Below are positions 12,620 to 13,195 of a stretch of DNA of 64,000 bases, one piece after another. Origin of the DNA: Lacibacter luteus (GTDB lineage Bacteria; Bacteroidota; Bacteroidia; Chitinophagales; Chitinophagaceae); contig NZ_SDHW01000001.1 in assembly GCF_004118265.1 (NCBI RefSeq), positions 186,001 through 250,000 on the forward strand, read 5' to 3'. How positions within the stretch are numbered: position 1 is the first letter of the stretch; every line of letters begins with the position of its first letter. The position numbers were made by a program, and so were the translations under genes. The notes under the pieces are model-generated. The model did no database searches. It saw only the letters and a program-made list of their open reading frames with translations, and was not told the DNA's origin.

Positions 12620-12676
12620 TCGGGATGACTGGATTCGAACTAGCGATCTTCCGCCTATTGCGGGATGCGTTACCGT
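12620..12676 (-). pseudogene. tRNA-Pro-like 3' fragment
   Basis: Read on the minus strand this contains a D-arm end (CGGTAACGCA), a hairpin TCCCGC..GCGGAAG in place of a normal anticodon arm, a T-arm with GTTCGAATC, and an acceptor 3' strand CATCCCG plus A. It lacks the 5' acceptor strand and the first half of the D-arm, so it cannot fold as a complete tRNA. It closely matches the intact tRNA-Pro about 55 bases away outside the anticodon arm. Confidence 0.65.
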
Positions 12677-12694
12677 TCAATGTTTTATGAAACA

Positions 12695-12724
12695 CAAAAG
12701 CTTCACTTTTCAGTGAAGCTTTTT
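12695..12724 (-). terminator. Terminator downstream of tRNA-Pro
   Basis: AAAAGCTTCACT and AGTGAAGCTTTT form a symmetric hairpin with T runs on both strands. It lies six bases after the 3' end of tRNA-Pro on the minus strand and would end that transcript. Confidence 0.7.
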
Positions 12725-12730
12725 ATTCAG

Positions 12731-12804
12731 TCGGGACGACTAGATTCGAACTAGCGACCCCTTGCACCCCATGCAAGTGCGCTACCGGGCTGCGCTACGT
12801 CCCG
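12731..12804 (-). tRNA. tRNA-Pro (anticodon GGG)
   Basis: The 74-base gene folds fully: acceptor CGGGACG/CGTCCCG with discriminator A, D-arm GCGC/GCGC, anticodon arm CTTGC-ATGGGGT-GCAAG, and T-arm GCTAG/CTAGT around TTCGAAT (the outer pair is G-T). The C1 start and GGG anticodon identify proline, reading CCC/CCU. CCA is not encoded. On the minus strand the GIY-YIG stop codon is only three bases before the tRNA 5' end, and partial tRNA-Pro copies lie on both sides. Confidence 0.93.
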
Positions 12805-12807
12805 AAC

Positions 12808-13050
12808 TCATACAAGACCTTGATCCTGTAAGTATCTTTTGATTCCTCTTTTTTTTATTTTCAATTCCAGTTGAGCTGCACTTGATCGAGAAGTGCATTC
12901 AAATGTTGTAATTAAAATCCAAGGAATACCTTTTGATGTATAATTACCTTTTCCTGCATTATGCTGATTTAATCTGATACTTACATTTTCAGTATAGCCA
13001 GCATAATACTTTTCTAAAGAACTACTAAAGAGAATATATACGTAAAACAT
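12808..13050 (-). CDS. Small GIY-YIG nuclease-domain protein
   Basis: An 80-residue stand-alone GIY-YIG domain. YVYIL at residues 3-7 and YYAGYT at 15-20 are the two motif strands, Arg26 (IRLNQHN) is the catalytic arginine and Glu62 (LELKIKK) the metal-binding glutamate. Small proteins of this type are common in Bacteroidota and lack a separate DNA-binding domain. Its ATG comes just after a tRNA-Pro 5'-half fragment, and its stop is three bases from the intact tRNA-Pro, so it appears to share the tRNA promoter. Activity as a site-specific endonuclease is inference. Confidence 0.88.
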   Translation of the reverse strand: MFYVYILFSSSLEKYYAGYTENVSIRLNQHNAGKGNYTSKGIPWILITTFECTSRSSAAQLELKIKKRGIKRYLQDQGLV

Positions 13051-13075
13051 AAACTCTCTATTTTGATCAGCAGCC

Positions 13076-13124
13076 CTCCCGCCTCCGGCGGGATGCGCTA
13101 CCGGGCTGCGCTACGTCCCGAACA
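13076..13124 (-). pseudogene. tRNA-Pro-like 5' half with altered anticodon hairpin
   Basis: On the minus strand the sequence starts CGGGACGTAGCGCAGCCCGG, identical to the 5' half of the intact tRNA-Pro. It then has TCCCGCC-GGA-GGCGGGA, a 7-bp stem that replaces the anticodon arm. T-arm and 3' acceptor strand are absent; the GIY-YIG start codon follows about 25 bases later. It is not a functional tRNA. Confidence 0.75.
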
Positions 13125-13162
13125 AAGAACGAAAATCCACCCCTGGATTTCATTCGGGGTTG

Positions 13163-13195
13163 CAAATGTAAGAATTCTATCTATTTGACACAAAA
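13163..13195 (-). promoter_or_regulatory. Bacteroidota-type promoter for the tRNA-Pro fragment / GIY-YIG / tRNA-Pro unit
   Basis: On the minus strand TTTTG (-33 box, 13191-13195) is followed after 20 bases by TACATTTG (-7 box, 13163-13170), a good match to the Bacteroidota TTTG-N19/21-TAnnTTTG consensus. It points into the 5' tRNA half and then the GIY-YIG gene and tRNA-Pro. No better promoter was seen between the GIY-YIG start and the tRNA. Confidence 0.65.

Follow-up and report, generated by a model that had tools for sequence, protein, structure and literature searches.

A minimal GIY-YIG nuclease gene in the window (the whole stretch of 64,000 nucleotides that was analysed) lies between a broken 5′ part of tRNA-Pro, interrupted by a perfect palindrome (P), and an intact tRNA-Pro(GGG), and nuclease genes of this kind recur beside tRNA genes of many types in other genomes. 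We consider it probable, by a modest measure, that a small splicing-free element of homing type breaks the tRNA gene and carries a replacement tRNA with it. The findings suggest a little-noticed family of selfish elements living in the tRNA genes of Bacteroidota.

Architecture of the tRNA-Pro locus

The preliminary description of this DNA had placed a 5′ half of tRNA-Pro, a GIY-YIG gene and an intact tRNA-Pro in this order, and ARAGORN, Rfam, PF01541 and an exact 30-nt direct repeat all agree with it (Table 1). The boxes at the start of the locus, which we take to be a putative Bacteroidota promoter consensus, also precede tRNA-Pro at the empty sites of relatives. P occupies the anticodon-arm position of the broken 5′ part, and the nuclease stop codon is 3 nt from the intact tRNA. 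The 3′ tRNA-Pro piece at the far end contains a decayed palindrome-like arm (12666-12649) and may be the scar of an earlier element. Neither palindrome had been mentioned in the preliminary description. Elsewhere in the same genome, a decayed-looking tRNA-Pro(CGG)-like gene (L167:551-625; G000:C24:366250-366323) scored 28.6 bits, the tRNA cut-off being 29.

Table 1. Parts of the tRNA-Pro locus, with positions in the window.
Feature	Position	Strand	Basis
Promoter-like boxes, TTTTG (13195) ... TACATTTG (13170-13163)	13163-13195	minus	sequence read
30-nt repeat copy 1: tRNA-Pro start with 3 nt of leader	13123-13094	minus	exact direct repeat
Palindrome P, TCCCGCC-GGA-GGCGGGA, 17 nt, perfect	13093-13077	minus	sequence, RNA fold
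T-arm start of broken tRNA-Pro, decayed	13076-13060	minus	by eye
GIY-YIG nuclease gene, minimal, 80 aa	13050-12808	minus	ORF list, PF01541
30-nt repeat copy 2: start of intact tRNA-Pro	12807-12778	minus	exact direct repeat
Intact tRNA-Pro(GGG)	12730/12731-12804	minus	ARAGORN and Rfam RF00005, 59.3 bits
Terminator-like hairpin and T-run	12724-12690	minus	sequence, by eye
tRNA-Pro 3′ piece, decayed	~12674-12619	minus	sequence
Segment missing from relatives' empty sites: broken tRNA-Pro 5′ part, P and nuclease gene, 316 bp	13123-12808	minus	alignment

Four familiar identities were considered and rejected. A group I intron was discarded after a search of the whole window at the Rfam gathering threshold, which returned two tRNA matches only and no intron family. 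Of the listed open reading frames (50 aa or longer), the 316-bp segment holds only that of the GIY-YIG protein and thus lacks the integrase gene that would mark an integrase-type island. REP-RAYT proper was dismissed because PF01541 was the sole match and no Y1 transposase was present, and a phage or plasmid vehicle because the matches amounted to three phage matches at 35-38% identity and no plasmid match.

Filled and empty sites within the genus

The site was tracked in 14 genomes of the genus by its neighbouring gene, a putative dihydroorotase-like gene. It was empty in seven genomes, filled in four and uninformative in three (G003 and G005, contig ends; G004, no tRNA at the site). The empty sites (G001, G002, G006, G007, G010, G011 and G013) consist of the promoter-like boxes, the leader and an intact tRNA-Pro(GGG) without the nuclease, and a profile search of these seven loci found no GIY gene. 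The filled sites are those of G009, G012, G008 and the window's genome; in G008, the site belongs to a tandem repetition of the unit where a contig ends. Lacibacter cauensis has the same locus as the window. Alignment with the empty sites of G006 (L063) and G013 (L064) left 316 extra bases in the window and alignment with that of G002 (L062) left 315, while the intact tRNA-Pro of the window is identical at 75/75 bases to that of five empty genomes. By the identity of the neighbouring protein, the empty genomes G002 (84%) and G006 (83%) are nearer to the window than are the filled genomes G012 (79%) and G008 (74%), and the presence pattern is therefore patchy.

Downstream of the site, a palindrome-bearing 3′ tRNA-Pro piece was found in G009 and G011, a tandem run of such pieces in G012, and more strongly decayed 3′ pieces in G002 and G013. 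All of these can be read as scars. Nuclease-bearing tRNA loci of congeners were also compared with the tRNA loci of the window's genome. Alignment extended over more than 400 bp of flank for 18 of the 22 loci (Arg, His, Leu, Val, Asp, Ser and Asn), which indicates that the sites are orthologous; the match at the other four was of tRNA length or slightly longer. By profile search, the corresponding tRNA loci of the window's genome contained no GIY gene. The preliminary description had read the locus as a cassette that entered a tRNA gene and brought or rebuilt a working copy, and had proposed a comparison with relatives for empty sites. That the site is empty in 7 of the 14 genomes, together with the enrichment of GIY-YIG genes and broken copies beside tRNAs reported below, gives good support to a cassette at a tRNA gene with a working copy left in place; the further proposals of that description, with the nuclease as mover and the promoter driving the broken half, the nuclease and the tRNA together, are more tentative.

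Nuclease genes beside tRNA genes

Protein similarity alone yielded 92 genes, spread over 38 of 59 genomes, and none of them was left out of the examination. An intact same-strand tRNA was present within 150 nt of 67 of them, compared with about 0.2 expected as computed from 55 tRNAs in 5.07 Mb. The nearest tRNA was upstream of 49 of the linked genes (median distance, 47 nt) and downstream of 18, and 85 of the 86 tRNAs within 500 nt of nuclease genes were on the same strand. The linked tRNAs represented 13 amino-acid types and one of unidentified type, and individual genomes had several linked copies, placed at different tRNAs. The 25 non-linked genes comprised five UPF0213-like genes, 10 genes within 300 nt of a contig end, three unlinked genes and seven that were either distal copies of pairs or had a tRNA slightly beyond the limit. 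None of the five UPF0213-like relatives was beside a tRNA, these rows having been chosen from the tree after linkage was known. The general class of tRNA-associated GIY-YIG cassettes that had been thought possible, and for which a survey of nuclease genes and tRNA halves beside tRNAs had been proposed, was thus recovered as a strong enrichment of both.

Linkage was also seen in other samples. A scan of named genomes found 16 of 22 loci to be tRNA-linked. Eight of these 22 loci belonged to Patescibacteria; five of the eight were linked, mostly at 114-144 nt, and the linked locus's own tRNA was the best match of the broken copy in only two of the five. Because of this spacing and the low number of broken copies, the class is less certain in Patescibacteria. 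At least 190 of 296 Bacteroidota genomes had a profile match, a count that may include UPF0213-like genes. Among the matches listed for a second sample, 23 of 30 loci were tRNA-linked; this count leaves out L218, whose copy sits 44 nt from tRNA-Asn, and two loci of the sample (L217 and L243) repeat loci of the first. As a separate observation, L175 (G000:C21, ~27.0-28.5 kb) contains a dense array of twelve tRNA genes, which is perhaps phage-derived, with several low-scoring tRNA-like matches 2 kb off.

Broken tRNA copies and tandem arrays

The flanks of 70 of the 81 linked loci resembled the tRNA of their own locus more closely than they did any of 25 tRNAs for other amino acids, and the remaining 11 loci had no clear broken copy. 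The broken copy was located on the opposite side of the nuclease from the intact tRNA and often also outside the intact tRNA. Left pieces usually lacked the 3′ acceptor strand, and right pieces usually lacked the 5′ acceptor strand. The broken copies were interrupted by palindromes, with a palindrome abutting tRNA sequence in 54 of the 81 loci. The 97 palindrome calls were distributed over the anticodon arm (51), T arm (18), D arm (16) and variable arm (4), with eight terminator-like calls; these arm calls are rough, as the code put the window's P under the D arm even though it is the anticodon arm that is replaced. In the left flank of L100/L045, Mesohalobacter halotolerans (L045) had a tandem run of three tRNA-Asn 5′ pieces with palindromes, followed by its intact tRNA-Asn.

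Among the matches listed, four single-contig genomes had tandem arrays (3.1-5.3 units, 96-100% match), and the first sample included seven nuclease pairs close together. Such arrays and the tRNA-derived direct repeats would also fit passive hitch-hiking, in which a tandem tRNA duplication by unequal crossing-over trapped a small repair-type nuclease gene that was then inherited and duplicated with its tRNA. Vertical clustering by tRNA type and the status of the UPF0213-like relatives as ordinary genes point the same way. We nevertheless regard hitch-hiking as distinctly unlikely in view of the 13 amino-acid types, the occurrence within one genome of several linked copies beside different tRNAs, and the far larger number of changes in tRNA type than in palindrome class on the same rows of the nuclease tree (21 versus 4; see below).

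The nuclease

The 80-aa protein matched a single family, PF01541 GIY-YIG (E value, 1.9e-14), and profile comparison further matched the UPF0213 structure 1zg2 (9.9e-17) and SLX1 (5.8e-7). The solved structures nearest to its predicted fold (model pLDDT, 95) were UPF0213 proteins and the branched-DNA nuclease Slx1. Residues Y5, Y16, G18, R26 and E62, which we take to be catalytic-type residues of GIY-YIG enzymes, were invariant across 12 diverse members, and H30 was present in at least 90%. By domain, residues, profile and fold, the window protein is a Slx1/UPF0213-like member of the GIY-YIG superfamily. A search of NCBIfam with the nuclease gave no family, and PADLOC gave weak partial matches only.

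Four nuclease pairs between genomes gave dN/dS ratios of 0.125-0.165, and one tandem pair gave 0.23; the fifth comparison between genomes, of a UPF0213-like pair, was saturated. These values indicate purifying selection on the nuclease genes. Stops were present in some copies. At loci of type U, the nuclease reading frame often enters the D-arm of the broken tRNA, and the end of the protein is encoded by tRNA sequence. The window's genome contained one GIY gene by single-sequence search and four by profile: that of the window locus, one near tRNA-Ser(cga) and two without a tRNA within 1.5 kb. The gene near tRNA-Ser(cga) (L257:1501-2044; G000:C11:688484-689027) follows the tRNA by about 90 nt and has, by eye, a tRNA-Ser-like remnant behind it.

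The protein could instead be an RNase or toxin, with the tRNA-like pieces as the RNA that partners or neutralizes it, as at type III toxin-antitoxin loci. The pieces are on the same strand as the nuclease gene, and the window's left piece is predicted to form a strong hairpin that was equalled by 3 of 200 shuffles. The right piece folded no better than its shuffles, the arrays multiply the nuclease gene itself, and the nearest solved structures are UPF0213 and Slx1; to our knowledge, known GIY-YIG enzymes act on DNA. An RNA-level system is therefore very unlikely.

Palindrome class and nuclease lineage

Palindrome classes and tRNA types were mapped on a nuclease tree built by a quick method from 80 columns, with 13 of 105 branches starred; it omits four of 114 records, namely three proteins shorter than 45 aa and L037, which is the same locus as G009. 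Nuclease lineages were tied to tRNA type, which required 38 changes over 79 rows, compared with 63.8 when shuffled (lowest, 59 in 200 shuffles). The same held for palindrome class, which required 13 changes over 52 rows, compared with 29.0 in free and 22.7 in within-genome shuffles (500 shuffles; lowest, 20 and 16, respectively), after removal of the eight terminator-like calls and with two of the 54 palindrome loci absent from the tree. When the same 43 rows with four named palindrome classes were used for both characters, P changed 4 times (shuffle mean, 16.6; lowest, 11) and tRNA type 21 times, the minima possible being 3 for four P classes and 17 for 18 tRNA states. For this mapping, CCCCG was merged with TCCCG, row 15 was classed by eye, its palindrome having been trimmed by the code, and nine rows classed as "other" were dropped; with these rows, there were 10 changes on 52 rows.

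P thus goes with the nuclease lineage. Nucleases of the K.KSR type, like those of the Pro-linked clade, had TCCCG/CCCCG palindromes (tRNAs for Pro, Arg, Ala, Val, Met, Asn, Ser, Leu and Lys), and CCTGCC palindromes accompanied KSGxG types at Arg, Glu and Leu tRNAs. TCCGCC palindromes were found in the Met-linked clade and GCTGAC palindromes with LKNL types. One and the same tRNA (Arg, Leu, Met or Val) had a different palindrome when the nuclease lineage was different. The second sample, in which the two members of five locus pairs coincide and many rows went unnamed by the regular expression, agreed with this: lineage a had a TCCCG-type P at 10 of 10 distinct loci with a called P (one also with CCTGCC), and lineage b had CCTGCC at three, TCCGCC at two and "other" at two. 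Exceptions were row 85 (KTGSG type, TCCCG palindrome), L042 (KSGRG type, TCCCG among its two palindromes), L234 (both palindrome kinds) and L248 (by eye).

Because the shuffles take no account of relatedness, the association would also be expected if nuclease and P were simply inherited together. The least that follows is that P and the nuclease are co-inherited as one unit through changes of tRNA. Two further patterns were considered and dropped. That the nuclease lineage fixes the P-bearing arm was favored by free shuffles (0.002) but not by within-genome shuffles (0.41). A division into T-loop lineages with many tRNAs and anticodon-loop lineages with one received no support, since K.KSR rows in which P is in the anticodon arm span several tRNA types.

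Proposed mechanism

Two marks of a homing endonuclease, a gene beside its presumed target and alleles free of the element, occur together at the tRNA-Pro site. The element-bearing allele has broken copies interrupted by P and an intact tRNA with the sequence of the empty site. From the filled and empty sites, the tRNA linkage, the broken copies of the same tRNA, the association of P with nuclease lineage, the arrays, the purifying selection, the invariant residues and the precedent of SegB (see below), we infer that tRNA DNA is cut and that the element is mobile by homing, with a role for P. The element would consist of a minimal GIY-YIG nuclease, a P typical of its lineage and tRNA-derived flanks. 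The first step would be a cut by the nuclease within a loop of an uninterrupted tRNA gene; the ends so produced would then pair with the tRNA stretches that flank P in a copy bearing the element, and repair would copy the element into the cut gene. One intact tRNA would be left, and the cell could survive without splicing. Later unequal recombination between the tRNA-derived repeats could produce tandem arrays or, alternatively, losses that leave P-bearing scars.

The homing reading is weakest in that the intact tRNA has the same sequence as the empty site: an enzyme able to cut the latter ought to cut this tRNA as well, unless its context, its expression or P makes the difference. The intact tRNA may be protected by context or low expression, or the true substrate may be P rather than the tRNA. 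Also counting against the reading are the P-type palindromes away from tRNAs, the lack of a within-genome tie between P-bearing arm and lineage, the exceptions to the P classes and the 11 loci with no clear broken copy. More tentatively, and as a reading that we think somewhat less likely than not, such elements could form a widespread class, mobile without splicing, in which a minimal nuclease takes its own palindromic partner from tRNA gene to tRNA gene and compensates every invasion with a replacement tRNA; the lineage would fix the palindrome, and the tRNA target would have changed about twenty times over 43 loci.

Relation to known elements

Integrase islands and group I introns also target tRNA genes and preserve their function. 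The present element shares these properties and differs in being one 80-aa open reading frame in 316 bp. UPF0213/YhbQ-like proteins and Slx1 have the same minimal domain and match in fold, whereas the UPF0213-like rows were not found beside tRNAs.

The closest known system is SegB of phages T4 and T6. The accessible text of one study describes it as a free-standing homing endonuclease of the GIY-YIG family whose gene lies beside phage tRNA genes of many types; the enzyme cleaves inside tRNA genes, and tandem amplification of the tRNA together with the nuclease depends on it (PMC13096335). The preferred motif given there, RAWTSGAAC (PMC13096335), would by our own reading correspond to the reverse strand of the tRNA T-loop. 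To the extent of that text, SegB resembles the present genes in being a GIY-YIG enzyme that adjoins tRNA genes of many types and in tandem amplification. However, SegB is phage-borne, and palindrome-bearing tRNA copies are not mentioned in the text available (PMC13096335), whereas the present genes are chromosomal, encode about 80 aa and have their own palindrome class in each lineage. The arrangement is likewise not described in the accessible parts of a 2006 GIY-YIG survey (PMC1564403) and a 2023 phage nuclease paper (PMC10448857). No description was found in the open-access library searched, which does not include preprints and most subscription papers. A paper on SOS regulation was set aside as a precedent, as its available part concerns another GIY-YIG protein.

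If the homing reading is correct, many small genes annotated "GIY-YIG nuclease family" in Bacteroidota would be parasites of tRNA genes rather than repair genes, equipped with a built-in means of keeping an essential gene working, and would form a chromosomal counterpart of phage SegB. The broken tRNA copies and the tandem tRNA-nuclease arrays would thereby be explained, and the origin of some dispersed palindromes may be affected as well. The small enzyme and its site would be a directly testable pair.

Palindromes away from tRNA genes

Palindromes of the P type were also present at sites away from tRNAs. In the window's genome, the pattern GCATCCCG..CGGGA had two matches, P of the window and one beside tRNA-Cys, and the looser TCCCG..CGGGA had 39, compared with 7 for the reversed control, which ruled out that P is unique to the window locus. 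TCCCG-type palindromes exceeded the reversed control in 48 of 59 genomes. CCTGCC-type palindromes, for which the control gave 0, occurred in 15 of 59 genomes and numbered 18 and 16 in two of them. CCTGCC presence coincided with the KSGxG lineage (8/15 versus 7/44 genomes; p = 0.007), and for TCCCG the link to lineage had a p value of 0.002 overall and 0.13 outside the window's genus. These counts are suggestive only of a link between dispersed palindromes and nuclease lineage.

REP sequences are partnered with RAYT (Y1) transposases, and the present system resembles REP-RAYT in that a small nuclease lineage is paired with a palindrome class that is also found elsewhere in the genome. It differs in that the enzyme is a GIY-YIG nuclease tied to tRNA genes and broken tRNA copies. 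A comparable nuclease-palindrome pair, whose enzyme would work on the palindrome cognate to it and promote the spread of palindromes, with broken tRNAs as one favored landing place, would fit the agreement of P class with nuclease lineage, the genome counts of both palindrome types, the CCTGCC association with KSGxG, and a fold nearest to UPF0213 and the branched-DNA nuclease Slx1. However, many of the dispersed palindromes could be terminators or repeats of another kind, the TCCCG link is not significant outside the window's genus, and such a pair alone leaves the intact tRNA unexplained. We consider this alternative rather unlikely. In another genome (L203:1430-1600; G027), TCCGCC- and TCCCG-type palindromes were seen inside a gene that, by eye, resembles that of RNase P RNA.
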